From assembly GCF_900105185.1 (NCBI RefSeq), contig NZ_FNTJ01000002.1, positions 1,488,001-1,552,000 of the forward strand: 64,000 nucleotides of DNA, in the 5' to 3' direction. Below the pieces are notes generated by a model. That model was not told the DNA's origin, ran no database searches, and was given only the letters and a program-made list of their open reading frames with translations. Below, piece by piece: positions 25,808 through 31,377 of this stretch. Source of the stretch: Pseudomonas saponiphila. GTDB lineage: Bacteria; Pseudomonadota; Gammaproteobacteria; Pseudomonadales; Pseudomonadaceae. Numbering within the stretch: the first letter of the stretch is position 1; every line of letters starts with the position of its first letter. Position numbers and translations under genes: made by a program.

Positions 25808-26290
25808 TCAACTGCCGGCAGCACCGAGCTGTGGTTCGGGTGGGTCGCCCAAGGCTGAGGGCGCCAGCCGTGGTTCGCCAAGCTCCAGTACGTCCTTCAT
25901 CAAACGTGGGTGGCGATCCAGCAGGCGCATCAGCACGTACAGCGGCTGGGGCACGCCGACTTCGCCGCGCTCGTAACGGGAAAAGGCATTGTGTCCACCT
26001 CCGGACAGCAGCTTGACTGCCTCCTTTTGCGAGAGGTGCAGCTTGCGGCGGATGCGCTTCAGGTCTGTGGCAACCTCCTGCCGGTAATCCTCAAGCAACT
26101 GGTCGCCTGCGGCGGCGTAGCGTTCTGCACTCTGGGCATCGAATTCGATTTCACCGCACTCCTGGCATTCCCAGCCCGCCAGGCCATGCAGGTGACGCAA
26201 CAGGTGCCGGTAGTCGACGACCTCGCTGCGCTGCTCGAACGCCAGCATGCCGGTCGGGGCGCCGCAGCTGTAGCACTGTTGTCGTTTCAT
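25808..26290 (-). CDS. mqsA: MqsA-family antitoxin (zinc ribbon + HTH)
   Basis: 160 residues. N-terminal zinc site C6-x2-C9 and C42-x2-C45; C-terminal XRE helix-turn-helix with LSQKEAVKLLSGGGHNAFSRYERG, which keeps the Asn and Arg that read DNA in E. coli MqsA (NAFSRYE). MqsA binds and neutralises MqsR and represses the operon. The protein is longer than E. coli MqsA (131 residues) because of a Pro/Ala/Gly-rich tail after about residue 135 (RLAPSALGDPPEPQLGAAGS). Its ATG overlaps the toxin stop by four bases; toxin-first order is typical of mqsRA. Confidence 0.93.
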   Translation of the reverse strand: MKRQQCYSCGAPTGMLAFEQRSEVVDYRHLLRHLHGLAGWECQECGEIEFDAQSAERYAAAGDQLLEDYRQEVATDLKRIRRKLHLSQKEAVKLLSGGGHNAFSRYERGEVGVPQPLYVLMRLLDRHPRLMKDVLELGEPRLAPSALGDPPEPQLGAAGS

Positions 26291-26598
26291 GTCTGTGCCT
26301 CCTTGAAGGAGATCATTGGAGGCCCCAAGCCGGGGCGGTGGGTGATCTTGATGTAGAGCGTCCGGTCATCGAGGCTGGTGTAATACACGTCTTGCCACAC
26401 CCGGTGATCGCAATAGGTGGTCATCGATTTGTAGAACATGTTGCCCTGGAGTCCGGCTATCACTCGTTGCATGGCGGCCAAGGACAATCCGAGTTCCCTG
26501 CCGCAGCGCAATGCGCTTCGAGTGAAGGCTTGTGCCCCTTGTCGAACGACGTGCGCCTTGATCAGCGAGAGGTCGTGGTGAAGTGTTTTCTTTTCCAT
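26287..26598 (-). CDS. mqsR: MqsR-family mRNA interferase toxin
   Basis: 103 residues from the ATG at 26598, with AAGGG seven bases upstream; a longer in-frame form from 26883 runs through the neighbouring IS end and is rejected. It is clearly related to E. coli MqsR: MEKKT start, ELGLSLAAM, FYKSMTTYCDHRVWQDVY, YIKIT and the SFKE end. The residues matching the E. coli active site are kept: K57, Q69, Y82 and K99. MqsR cuts mRNA at GCU/GCA. It is co-transcribed with mqsA and preceded by a palindromic operator. Confidence 0.94.
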   Translation of the reverse strand: MEKKTLHHDLSLIKAHVVRQGAQAFTRSALRCGRELGLSLAAMQRVIAGLQGNMFYKSMTTYCDHRVWQDVYYTSLDDRTLYIKITHRPGLGPPMISFKEAQT

Positions 26599-26750: not shown

Positions 26751-26779
26751 TTGAGCGAGTCCCATGAGCGAAACATCCC

Positions 26780-26786
26780 CCCTGAT
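26780..26786. repeat. Left 7-bp target-site duplication of the IS21 element
   Basis: CCCTGAT lies immediately outside the left terminus of the IS; the identical copy is at 29428-29434. Confidence 0.9.
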
Positions 26787-26832
26787 TGCGGATTTCGGTG
26801 AACGTGACCGAGCGTTTCGCTAATACGTGACC
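26787..26832. repeat. Left-in-window terminal inverted repeat of the IS (two transposase-site units)
   Basis: CGTGACC occurs at 26803-26809 and 26826-26832, each preceded by TTCGG or TTCGC, matching the inverse units at the other end. A further inverse copy GGTCACG (26878-26884) overlaps the istB stop codon. Confidence 0.85.
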
Positions 26833-26879
26833 GGTGCTTCCACCCCGGTTGCGCGGGTTCTGGATTGTAATCGCATCGG

Positions 26880-27629
26880 TCACGATGCGGCTTGTTCCTC
26901 GGCTTTTTTTCGGCGCAGCGACTCGCCTTTCATCGTCAGTCGGTAGGCGTTGTGCACCAGGCGGTCGAGGATGGCATCGGCCAGGGTCGGGTCGTTGATC
27001 CAGCCGTGCCAGTGCTCGATGGGCAGTTGGCTCGTCAGGATGGTGGAGCGGCTGCCAGCGCGGTCGTCGATCACCTCCAGCAGGTCATGCCGGGCTCCTT
27101 CCTCCAGCGGGGCTAGCGCCCAGTCGTCCAGCACCAGGACGTCGACCTTTGCCAGCTGTTGCAGGGTACGGCCGAAGCTGCCGTCGCCATGAGCGATGCG
27201 CAGTTGTTCCAGCAGGCGCGGGGTGCGCAGGTACAGGGTGCTATAGCCCTGGCGGCAGGCCTGGTTGCCCAGGGCGCAGGCCAGCCAGGTTTTGCCGGCA
27301 CCGGTCGGGCCGGTCAGCAGCAGGTTGTGCTGCTGGCGGATCCAGTCGCCACTGGCCAGGGTGGCGATCAGACGCTCGTCCAGGGCGCGTCCGGTGCGGC
27401 GGTCGAGATCTTCCAGGCAGGCGTTGGCGTACTTGAGCTTGGCCTTCTTGCGCAGCCGTACCAGGCGCTGGTTGTCACGCCAGGCCAGTTCGCGGTCGAG
27501 CAGTAGGCCGAGGCGTTCATCGAAGCTCAGGCTGTGGCTGGCCGGCAGCGTCCATTGCTCTTCCAGGGCGCGGGCCATGCCGTCCAGGCGTAGCTGGTGC
27601 AGTTGATTCAGGGTGTGTTGCGGCATCAT
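26880..27629 (-). CDS. istB: IstB, IS21 transposition helper ATPase
   Basis: 249 residues from the ATG at 27629, with AGGAG eight bases upstream. AAA+ motifs: Walker [18 protein letters not shown], Walker [13 protein letters not shown], sensor region [14 protein letters not shown]. IstB loads on DNA and directs IstA to the target. It starts inside istA, overlapping it by 113 bases in another frame, which suggests translational coupling. Confidence 0.95.
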
Positions 27630-29202
27630 CGAACAGCTCCTGTTGCGGGGGTTGGTAGTAGTCGGCGCCACGGACGTTCTCGTGGTCGCCGGGTAAGGTC
27701 GTTTCGGCGGCACGCTGGGGCAGCGGCTGTTGATCCAGGCCTTGCTGGAGCAGGTTGCGCACGCTGCGCCCGGTGAAGGCGCGCAGGTGTACGGCACGTT
27801 CGGCAGCGGCTTCCAGGCGTGCATTGCCATAGCGCCGGGCCAGCGAGAGCAGGCCGAGGCAGGCGCGGTAGCCCATCTCCGGGTGCGGCTTGTGGGTCAG
27901 TTGGTGATCGATCAGTTGGCGCGTGTAGGGGCCGATCCGCGCGCCCCAGTCGAGCAGGCGTTGTGGCGTCCATTCGCGATGCGCCTGGTGCGCCGCGGGC
28001 ATGTGCTCGCGCTGGGTACTGTAAGCGCCGCGTCGCCCCAGCAGCAGGTGGCTGGCCACCCGCCGGTTGCCATGCAGCACTTCCAGGGTGTGTGCCGTCA
28101 GTCGCACGTCCACGTTCTGCCGGGCCAGGGCGGAGGGCACGCTGTAGAAGCTGCCATTGACCTCGATGTGGTAGTCGATGCTGACCTTGCAGCGCTTGAA
28201 GGTGGCGACCTCGTAGGGATGCACCGGCAGCGCTCGCAAGGCCGGGCGATCCAGGCGCTCGAACCAGTCGCGCCGGCAGCCATCGAGCCGCTTGAACGGG
28301 CGCCGATTCAGATCCTCCAGCAGCTCGGCGATGGCCTGGTTAAGCGCATGCAGGCTGAAGAACTGCCGATGGCGCAGCCGCGCCATGATCCAGCGCTCGA
28401 CCACCTGCACCGCCACCTCGGCCTTGGCCTTGTCCTGAGGCTTGCGTGGCCGTGCCGGCAGGATCACCGTCTGGTAATGACGCGCGCACTCCAGCGTGGC
28501 CCGGTTCAGGCCCGGCTCGTAGCGATCCGGCTGGGCGACCAGGGCGCGCGGATTGTCCGGCACAACCATTTCCGGCACGCCGCCAAAGTAGGTCAGAGCC
28601 TGGCCCAGCGAGGTCAGCCAGTCCACCTGGGTTTCGCCTGGCGTCGCGCAGGCATAGGTGTAATTCGAGGCGCCCAGGGCGGCGACGAAGATGTGCGCCC
28701 GGCGCACTTCGCCGGTGGCCGGGTCGACCACCGGCAGCGTCGGCCCGGCATAGTCGATGAATAGCTTCTCGCCCGCACGGTGCAGCTGACGCATCGAACG
28801 TTTGAGCGTCTGGGCGTAGCGCCGGTAGTGCTCGACGAACTGGGTGTAGCGGTAGGTCGGCTGGCCCGCATGCGCGGCGAGATATTCCTCCCACAGCAGC
28901 TGCAAGGTCACGCCCTTGCGTCGCAACTCGCGGTGGATGCTCAGCACATCGGGCAGCACTCGCTCACCGCGCGGCTTGTTCGTCGACGTCGGTGCAAACA
29001 AGGCGGCCGCCAGCGCGGCCTCGTCCATGGCCACCAGCGCCGGCCAGTCCAGCCCGGCCACCCGCGCCGCCGCGATGTACTTGCTAACCACGCCCTTGGA
29101 CAGCTGCAAGGCACGGGCAATCTTCTCGTGGGACAAGCCGGCCTCAAACTTGAGGCGCAGACATTCTTTGATGTTTCGCATGGCTACTCGCGGCGCCGCC
29201 AT
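27517..29202 (-). CDS. istA: IstA, IS21 transposase
   Basis: 561 residues from 29202, with GGGAG six bases upstream; a second ATG lies at 29181. N-terminal HTH ([20 protein letters not shown]), then an rve/DDE integrase core: first Asp in LFIDYAGP, second Asp in [10 protein letters not shown], Glu in [16 protein letters not shown]-terminal beta-barrel part follows ([16 protein letters not shown]). No frameshift or stop is visible, so it appears intact. It cuts and joins the IS ends with IstB. Confidence 0.95.
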
Positions 29203-29277
29203 CTTCCTCTCCCGAAATCGGTCGAGGATGGCGGCGCATCAGGTCATGCGCAACGAAGGGGAAGGCTTTCGCTAAGT

Positions 29278-29427
29278 CGTGACCGGCGATTTCGGTAAGC
29301 CGTGACCACCTGTTTCGGAACAGGCGGAAAATCGGTCACGTTGCTACCGAAATGAGCGGTCACGCGTTAGCGAAATGACCGGTCACGATCAACCGAAACG
29401 GCCGGTCACGGTGCTCCGAAATCCGCA
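29278..29427. repeat. Right-in-window terminal inverted repeat of the IS (six transposase-site units)
   Basis: GGTCACG recurs at 29334, 29358, 29381 and 29404, about 23-24 bases apart, each followed by a CGAAA-like block; two inverse copies (CGTGACC at 29278 and 29301) point back toward istA. The other end has only two to three units. These are probably IstA binding sites. Confidence 0.85.
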
Positions 29428-29434
29428 CCCTGAT
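29428..29434. repeat. Right 7-bp target-site duplication of the IS21 element
   Basis: CCCTGAT, identical to 26780-26786. Together they fix the insertion boundaries and suggest a fairly recent, unrearranged insertion. Confidence 0.9.
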
Positions 29435-30084
29435 CAAAAAATCCCTGGTCGACCAGGCCCTGGAGCAACTGCGCAAACGCATCAACAACGGTGTCTGGCG
29501 GGTCGGCCAGCGCTTGCCCACCGAACCGGAACTGGCCCAAGAACTGGGCATCAGCCGCAATACGGTGCGCGAAGCCATGCGGGTGCTGGCGTTCTCCGGA
29601 CTGATCGAGATCCGCCAGGGCGATGGCAGTTACCTGCGGGCGGTGGCCGATCCACTGGACATGCTCCAGGCGCTGTCGCAGTGCTCTCTGGAACAGGCCC
29701 GGGAAACCCGGCAGATCCTCGAAGTGGAGGCGGTCGGCCTGGCGGCCCTGCGTCGCACCGACGAGGACCTGCAGGACTTGAAGCAAGCCTTGCAGGCCAG
29801 CAGCGGGCATTTTCACGGCGACCTGGAAAGTTACATCGCCTGCGACCTGGTGTTTCACCAGCGCCTGGTGGATGCCGCCCACAATCCGACCCTCAGCCAG
29901 CTGTACCGCTACTTCTCCAGTGTGGTCGGCGCGCAGTTGCGCCAGACCTTGACCCAGGCTCCGCGTCGCCAGGACGTCTTCGATCTCCATCAGCACCTGC
30001 TGGATGCCATCGAACAGGGCGACCCCGAGCGGGCCAAGAAGCTGTCCCGCCAACTGATCAACGAATCCTGAATCCGAGACCTTC

Positions 30085-31377
30085 ATGTCCAATCACCAGG
30101 TACCCCCGAATACCCCGTCTGCTCCTCGGCGTCCTGCCGAGCTCGAAGAGCTGCTGATCGACGCCGAGGCCGATGACGAGGAGCTTCAGCAGGCCCCGCC
30201 CGCGGTACGTCGGCCCTGGCTGTTGCTGCTGGGGCTGATCCTGGTGGCGCTGAACCTGCGTCCGGCGCTGTCGAGCATGGCGCCGTTGCTCAGTGACGTA
30301 TCCCAGAGCCTGGGCCTGTCGGCGGCCAAGGCGGGGTTGCTGACCACCTTGCCGGTGTTGTGCCTGGGTTTGTTCGCGCCTTTGGCGCCGCTGCTGGCCC
30401 GGCGTTTTGGTGCCGAGCGGGTGGTGCTGGGGATTCTCCTGACCCTGGCCCTGGGCATTGTGCTGCGCAGTTCCCTGGGGGAGTTCGGGGTCTTTGCCGG
30501 GAGCATCCTGGCCGGCGCCAGCATCGGCGTGATCGGCGTGCTGCTGCCGGGCATCGTCAAACGCGACTTTGCCCGGCATGCGGGCACCATGACCGGGGTC
30601 TACACCATGGCCCTGTGCCTGGGCGCGGCCATGGCGGCCGGGGCCACGGTGCCCTTGAGCCAGCACTTCGGCAACAGCTGGGCCATGGGACTGGGCTTCT
30701 GGGTCGTGCCGGCCATGGTGGCGGCGCTGTTCTGGCTGCCTCAAGTGGGGCAGAAACACGGGGCTCACCATGTCGCCTTCCGTGTGCGCGGGTTGCTGCG
30801 CGATCCGCTGGCCTGGCAGGTGACCCTGTACATGGGGCTGCAATCCTCTCTGGCCTACATCGTGTTTGGCTGGTTGCCGTCGATCCTGATCGGCCGCGGG
30901 CTGACCCCGACCCAGGCGGGGCTGGTGCTGTCGGGTTCGGTGATCGTGCAACTGGCCAGCTCCCTGGCGGCGCCCTGGCTGGCGACTCGCGGCAGGGACC
31001 AGCGCCTGGCCATCGTGATGGTCATGCTGATGACCCTGGGCGGCCTGTTCGGCTGCCTTTATGCGCCGCTGGACGGCTTGTGGGGCTGGGCCATTCTCCT
31101 GGGCCTGGGGCAGGGCGGCACTTTCAGCCTGGCCCTGACCCTGATCGTCCTGCGTTCGCGGGACTCCCATGTGGCCGCCAACCTGTCGAGCATGGCCCAG
31201 GGCATCGGCTACACCCTGGCGTCCATGGGGCCGTTTGCGGTGGGGCTGGTGCACGACTGGACCGGTGGCTGGAACGCCGTGGGCTGGATCTTCGCGGTGC
31301 TGGGCAGCGGGGCGATCATCGCCGGGCTGGGCGCGGGTCGTGCGCTGTATGTGCAGGTGCAGAGCGAGAAAATCTAA
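30085..31377 (+). CDS. CynX/NimT-family MFS transporter
   Basis: 430 residues. A cytoplasmic tail of about 45 residues (acidic ELEELLIDAEADDEELQQ) precedes twelve membrane segments. LNLRPALSSMAPLLSDVSQS is the family signature of CynX/YeaN (cyanate or 2-nitroimidazole exporters); the segment FARHAGTMTGVYTMALCLGAA also fits. Substrate unknown. It lies 13 bases after the GntR gene that the IS disrupts, so it may have lost its normal promoter or its control, or now depend on readthrough or a promoter at the IS end. Confidence 0.88.
   Translation: MSNHQVPPNTPSAPRRPAELEELLIDAEADDEELQQAPPAVRRPWLLLLGLILVALNLRPALSSMAPLLSDVSQSLGLSAAKAGLLTTLPVLCLGLFAPLAPLLARRFGAERVVLGILLTLALGIVLRSSLGEFGVFAGSILAGASIGVIGVLLPGIVKRDFARHAGTMTGVYTMALCLGAAMAAGATVPLSQHFGNSWAMGLGFWVVPAMVAALFWLPQVGQKHGAHHVAFRVRGLLRDPLAWQVTLYMGLQSSLAYIVFGWLPSILIGRGLTPTQAGLVLSGSVIVQLASSLAAPWLATRGRDQRLAIVMVMLMTLGGLFGCLYAPLDGLWGWAILLGLGQGGTFSLALTLIVLRSRDSHVAANLSSMAQGIGYTLASMGPFAVGLVHDWTGGWNAVGWIFAVLGSGAIIAGLGAGRALYVQVQSEKI

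Follow-up and report, generated by a model that had tools for sequence, protein, structure and literature searches.

An insertion sequence lodged in a regulator gene raises two questions: what the insertion has done to the gene, and whether it stands alone or belongs to a larger event. We analysed such a case in a stretch of 64,000 nucleotides of the Pseudomonas saponiphila genome (the window, to which coordinates refer unless a contig or locus is named). The element, IS1474-like and 2641 bp long, occupies 26787..29427 on the minus strand and carries istA and istB, both read leftwards. It is bounded by perfect 12-bp terminal inverted repeats, TGCGGATTTCGG at 26787..26798 (plus strand) and its perfect match at 29416..29427 (minus strand), and flanked on the plus strand by the target-site duplication CCCTGAT at 26780..26786 and 29428..29434. 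The bounds, inverted ends and CCCTGAT pair of the original prediction are exact to the base. The IS21 transposase gene istA (27517..29202, minus strand, 561 aa) matched NF033546 with 301.7 bits (cut-off 160) and contains a Mu-transpos_C_2 domain. Its 3′ end is overlapped by istB (26880..27629, minus strand, 249 aa), which encodes an AAA+ helper ATPase (NF038214, 272.6 bits, cut-off 200; PF01695). At its istA-proximal end the element carries a terminal array of repeats (29279..29409, minus strand) with four GTGACC words at positions 19, 42, 65 and 89 and two GGTCAC words at 121 and 144, counted in the istA orientation. By IS21 precedent, this array would provide transposase binding sites. Two further GGTCAC words (26804..26832, minus strand) lie near the istB-distal end, at 105 and 128 within the last 150 positions, counted in the same orientation. 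The element starts with TG and ends with CA, and it is placed in the IS21 family by its IstA, the overlapping IstB, these TG..CA ends with their repeat arrays and the short target duplication. It is 99.6% identical to copies annotated as IS1474 family on plasmid pNY11382-IMP and 84% identical to copies annotated as IS1162 family. A search among near relatives (57 genomes) gave a best match outside this genome of 68%.

The interrupted gene, gntR, begins on the plus strand at 26764..26786 with an ATG, six more codons and two bases of codon 8. The remainder of its frame (29430..30071, plus strand) encodes 213 aa without a native start and matches GntR (PF00392, 68.2 bits) and FCD (PF07729, 94.8 bits). 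Both matches are above cut-off in this remainder as well as in the intact gene of P. protegens FD6, and the gene is a member of the GntR family, FCD subgroup. For a closer assignment to LldR, NanR or PdhR, no NCBIfam equivalog cut-off was reached, the best score being 99 bits against 311 for LldR. Removal of 26787-29427 and of one CCCTGAT restores, as predicted, a single frame of 30071-26764+1-2641-7 = 660 nt, or 219 codons plus a stop. Read from the left, the break sits within codon 8 (AT|C) rather than between codons 7 and 8. Both domains, winged-helix and FCD, are whole and lie entirely to the right of the element, which does not split them. Only 13 bases downstream of gntR, a gene for a CynX/NimT-type MFS transporter (30085..31377, plus strand; TIGR00896, 472.4 bits, cut-off 406) probably shares its transcription unit. 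On the other side, the toxin gene mqsR (26287..26598, minus strand; PF15723, 93.5 bits) is divergent from gntR and is followed by the antitoxin gene mqsA (25808..26290, minus strand; PF15731, 85.1 bits).

Comparison with relatives, the check proposed together with the prediction, covered 80 named Pseudomonas loci, chosen as the best among 378 that were located by way of the neighbouring transporter gene. The site is empty in P. protegens FD6 (L047): a single CCCTGAT is present, the sequence reads straight across the junction, and an intact gene of 219 aa (L047:5328-5987) is 92% identical to the gene studied here over its right-hand part. All 80 of these best 80 of 378 have an uninterrupted frame across the junction. 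In 79 of the 80 the site has a methionine seven residues ahead of it, the residues SPL precede it in 74, isoleucine or valine followed by lysine comes behind it in 77, and the part behind the junction measures 212 residues in 79 (236 in the remaining locus, L049). The mqsRA pair (25808-26598), which reads away from gntR, had a DNA match at the same locus in 51/80 relatives, one of these matches being 36 bp long. The insertion, its duplication and the empty site in a relative are thus observed directly. That it was precise and recent, as had been claimed, is borne out by the empty FD6 site, by the 80 open frames and by the 97 further genomic copies that are identical to the element.

On the best account, the element inserted by ordinary IstA/IstB transposition just past codon 7, duplicating a 7-bp target. 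In so doing it parted the domain-complete remainder of gntR from the start codon and promoter that served it, and probably also parted the CynX-like transporter gene from its native promoter. With promoter, start codon and seven codons severed, the allele is probably null, and regulator activity has probably been lost. The predicted knockout is therefore likely rather than proven, both domains being intact downstream. An alternative that we consider improbable is that the insertion is not null and that a slightly shortened protein is produced, with translation beginning close to the junction and transcription coming from a promoter in the element end. Outward promoters have been reported for the IS21-family elements ISPkr1 and ISPve1 in the available text of PMC3281130, and the GntR and FCD domains of the remainder are complete. 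However, a consensus scan revealed no sigma-70-like outward promoter, and the open frame contains no ATG, GTG or TTG from 29379 until 29514, a position already within the winged helix. Because both domains are whole downstream, a shortened protein could still arise from a rare start codon.

In order to place this insertion in its genomic context, we searched for the element in the whole assembly (7,375,852 bases in 4 contigs: the two chromosome-size contigs C1 and C2, the 398-kb contig C3, and C4). The assembly contains 104 occurrences of the left end and 105 of the right, and control patterns were absent. Among 104 end-to-end copies, 98 are identical over all 2641 bp, 4 belong to a 2618-bp variant and 2 (L180 and L229) lie at error-rich contig tails. 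Without the last two, 102 distinct copies remain. The extra right end belongs to a truncated copy (L181, C1:811550-817190), which retains element positions 691-2641 with 100% identity and looks like a sign of recent deletion at one end. An exact flanking duplication was found for 95/102 distinct copies; 8 of these duplications measure 5 bp, 48 measure 6 bp and 39 measure 7 bp, and all 95 differ in sequence. When left and right flanks of different copies were paired, only 17/10302 pairings matched over at least 5 bp, against 95/102 of own pairings, which is beyond chance. Copies are present on all four contigs and account for some 3.7% of all bases (104 x 2641), with a density on C3 three times that on C1 and C2 (3.9 versus 1.3 per 100 kb, P = 0.0006). 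The insertion in gntR is therefore one event of a recent burst that left 102 distinct copies, nearly all of them identical. In a scan of 398 Pseudomonas genomes including this one (one per species, evenly drawn from a larger group), the element end was present in 6, the other five having it once each, a lower bound because many are drafts in which repeats can collapse. Searching 398 genomes with a word from a different IS21 type, which reached 9 occurrences per genome at most, revealed no second Pseudomonas IS21 burst, and no earlier account of such a burst was found among the open-access papers searched.

At a mutation rate near 1e-10 per base and generation, and given zero differences among 98 copies, the mean copy age would be below roughly 1e5 generations, unless polishing of the assembly hid some differences; polishing could account for part of the base-perfect identity. 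That the copy number itself is an artefact of assembly is scarcely credible. Two of the 104 copies do repeat flanks found elsewhere and carry indels at contig tails, but 95 of the remaining 102 each have their own matching duplication, and misassembly would not create 95 different ones. L180, at the tail of C1, shares its left flank with L213 and its right flank with L179; for L229, at the start of C4, the partners are L226 on C3 (left) and L231 on C4 (right). Both contain indels and are either assembly leftovers or alternative arrangements. The active intermediate of IS21 is a tandem dimer or a circle. No head-to-tail pair of copies was seen among the 100 places listed nor among the further C3 and C4 copies, although dimers may collapse in assembly.

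Several side observations were made on the copies and their surroundings. The 2618-bp form (L153, L219, L221 and L225, on C1 and C3, with 3/4 copies on C3) lacks 23 bp of the istA-proximal repeat array and has one or two substitutions. One copy (L169, C1:3573072-3578712) is embedded in a repeat array whose near-identical units measure about 110 bp. A 1576-bp piece in a Priestia aryabhattai plasmid record (CP065422.1, 148153-149728) is 99.5% identical to the element; in this Gram-positive record it reflects either contamination or an odd transfer. A 12.7-kb portion of C3 (L227), searched for the origin of this contig, had no near-identity match in plasmid records, and 12 kb of C4 (L231) resembles P. 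paraeruginosa RepA plasmids (95% over 83%).

Insertions with exact duplications allowed us to assess what the element hits. A codon-usage test called 50/82 of those on the chromosome intragenic, and 1/13 on C3 and C4, two contigs on which few random positions are called intragenic either (111/520); a stricter gene caller gave 32/102. Avoidance of genes was suggested by comparison with random window positions (1519/2000, P = 0.003), but is not claimed because comparison with positions from the same neighbourhoods (1092/1640) gave P = 0.29. For 50 sites picked by a related score, one piece of each broken gene was searched against Pfam and 42 matched at 1e-5. The matches include chemoreceptors, a TonB receptor, an OprD porin, FecR, a sigma-70 region 2 protein, dehydrogenases, transporters, a LuxR-type regulator, a GGDEF/EAL protein and phage genes. 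The insertions look like a broad sample of dispensable genes, with the GntR gene among them. A target consensus was also sought: only weak position biases appeared, and complementary pairs within the duplications (72/277) fell in the range of controls (60-87/277).

We then asked how the copies are distributed along the replicons. Spacing was computed without the truncated L181, two C4 copies (L230 and L231), L180 and L229. The 84 gaps between the 86 copies on C1 and C2 had a coefficient of variation (CV) of 0.725, where random placement gave 0.983 (P = 0.0009); this is the strongest result, with simulated placement as its only control. The gaps also departed from an exponential distribution (Kolmogorov-Smirnov, P = 0.016). 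Short gaps were deficient: 3 below 10 kb against 10.2 expected (P = 0.004), 6 below 20 kb against 19.2 (P = 3e-5) and 13 below 30 kb against 27.1 (P = 2e-5). Between 20 and 30 kb, 7 gaps were observed where about 7.9 were expected (from two simulated means). These cut-offs were picked after the gaps were seen, while the CV test needs none. C3, treated as a circle, gave a CV of 0.55 against 0.91 (P = 0.015, and 0.016 in a second run). On chromosome-size contigs the copies thus lie more evenly than random. Repeat-mediated misassembly should not make gaps even, because reshuffling would keep segment lengths. Since random insertion, gene avoidance and regional preference would all leave gaps random or clumped, the evenness calls for some form of repulsion.

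Outside records served as replicates. They comprised pNY11382-IMP, with 8 copies of this element, and listed plasmid records with at least 6 places of a second IS21 element, drawn from a listing of 60 out of 89 records, so that plasmids with more copies may have escaped it. Fragments were left out, as were IS21 relatives that had diverged to 66-79% identity with the query. Copies were evenly spaced on pNY11382-IMP (P = 0.014) and pTTS12 (P = 0.028), but not on p3860P (P = 0.19), pPUV-5 (0.48, two elements pooled), pZYPA162 (0.53) or pZYPA192 (0.83). A further plasmid, p4782_002, gave P = 0.16 with its 9 near-identical copies and became even only when diverged copies were included (11 in all, P = 0.023). 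The combined value was P = 0.005 for the eight IS21 records with C3 and P = 0.028 for the seven without it, several of the P. aeruginosa plasmids being possibly related and hence not independent; a Fisher value of 6.6e-6 for four replicons used the 11-copy p4782_002. Five E. coli plasmids with at least 8 IS1 places, taken from a listing of 60 out of at least 5000 records and left with 8, 6, 8, 6 and 8 copies after removal of fragments of up to 209 bp, served as control and showed no evenness (P 0.34-0.80, combined 0.80). We regard chance or choice of replicons as an unlikely explanation. It draws on the four outside plasmids with P from 0.19 to 0.83 and on cut-offs not set beforehand, but it has to face the value for the 84 chromosome gaps, those for C3, pNY11382-IMP and pTTS12, and the difference between the IS21 records and the IS1 controls.

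The main rival to target immunity as an explanation is recombination between close direct copies, which would delete the intervening DNA and leave one hybrid copy. Direct pairs are indeed the most depleted on C1 and C2 (2 below 20 kb against 9.5 expected, P = 0.002; none below 10 kb). The three closest chromosomal pairs, all below 10 kb, are inverted and all face the same way. Moreover, 7/102 copies lack matching duplications, as expected of hybrids, and one further copy is truncated. However, inverted pairs, which such recombination spares, are also fewer than expected (4 below 20 kb against 9.7, P = 0.023), even though three below 10 kb remain. Each deletion should leave an unmatched copy, and C1 and C2 hold only four (L161, L165, L174 and L212), too few for about 13 missing pairs; deletion can therefore cover only part of the deficit. 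The evenness even persists when these four copies are removed (P = 0.0003). Taken as the sole source of the evenness, deletion is possible but doubtful. One of the unmatched copies, L161, differs from the element by one base. Reciprocal inversions were also considered as an origin of the unmatched copies, but these had no cross-matching duplications among themselves, the one 6-bp match being to a matched copy.

Target immunity, which would explain the deficit of direct and inverted pairs alike, is for this reason the mechanism that we favour, at about even confidence. IstA bound to the ends of a resident element would prompt IstB to leave DNA within roughly 20 kb, and this departure would make new copies land elsewhere. 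A deficit near resident copies was found on C1 and C2 and on C3. On the other side, the reduction is about three-fold, three inverted chromosomal pairs lie within 10 kb, four of the seven outside plasmids show no evenness, and the cut-offs were chosen post hoc. That immunity of the IS21 family acts over about 20 kb in living cells, and could space a hundred copies along a chromosome, is in our judgement a balanced proposition. If true, natural IS21 bursts would record the range of immunity, here as a roughly three-fold drop in neighbours up to 20 kb and almost no deficit at 20-30 kb. We hold with high confidence the account as a whole, in which an IstA/IstB insertion, probable loss of the regulator and a recent burst are joined to evenness by immunity, a last step that by itself could go either way.

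The gntR insertion by itself is an ordinary IS insertion, correctly read. The element resembles the IS1474/IS1162 group, IS21-family elements of Pseudomonas, in its istA/istB genes, TG..CA ends and repeat words at both ends, a likeness drawn from annotated copies and not from the IS1474 reference sequence. It differs from this group in its 102 distinct copies within one genome. The closest parallel is ISS12 (ISPpu7) of P. putida S12, an IS21 element described in the available text of PMC5658596 as present on chromosome and megaplasmid, with 28 copies of its main variant, variable duplications of about 7 bp and no target consensus. Both elements make variable duplications of this kind without a target consensus, and both interrupt a regulator gene; ISS12 inactivates the srpS repressor gene, whereas the regulator struck here has no known target genes. 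The present case is an event of that type at a greater scale. What is noteworthy here is the burst and its spacing, about a hundred copies (102 distinct) against the 28 given for the main ISS12 variant in that text (PMC5658596). Since the copies are young and most retain a duplication of their own, they come close to recording directly where an IS21 element lands and survives. Target immunity is established for Mu (MuB) and Tn7 (TnsC), and a 1985 paper reportedly dealt with IS21 immunity. For IS21 it goes back to an early suggestion, and the mechanism was said in 2024 to await study, according to the available text of PMC11208146. IstB, like MuB and TnsC, is an AAA+ helper ATPase, and insertions near a resident copy are likewise fewer. 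The burst makes the suggested immunity of IS21 measurable, along with its range, which could be set against those of MuB and TnsC.
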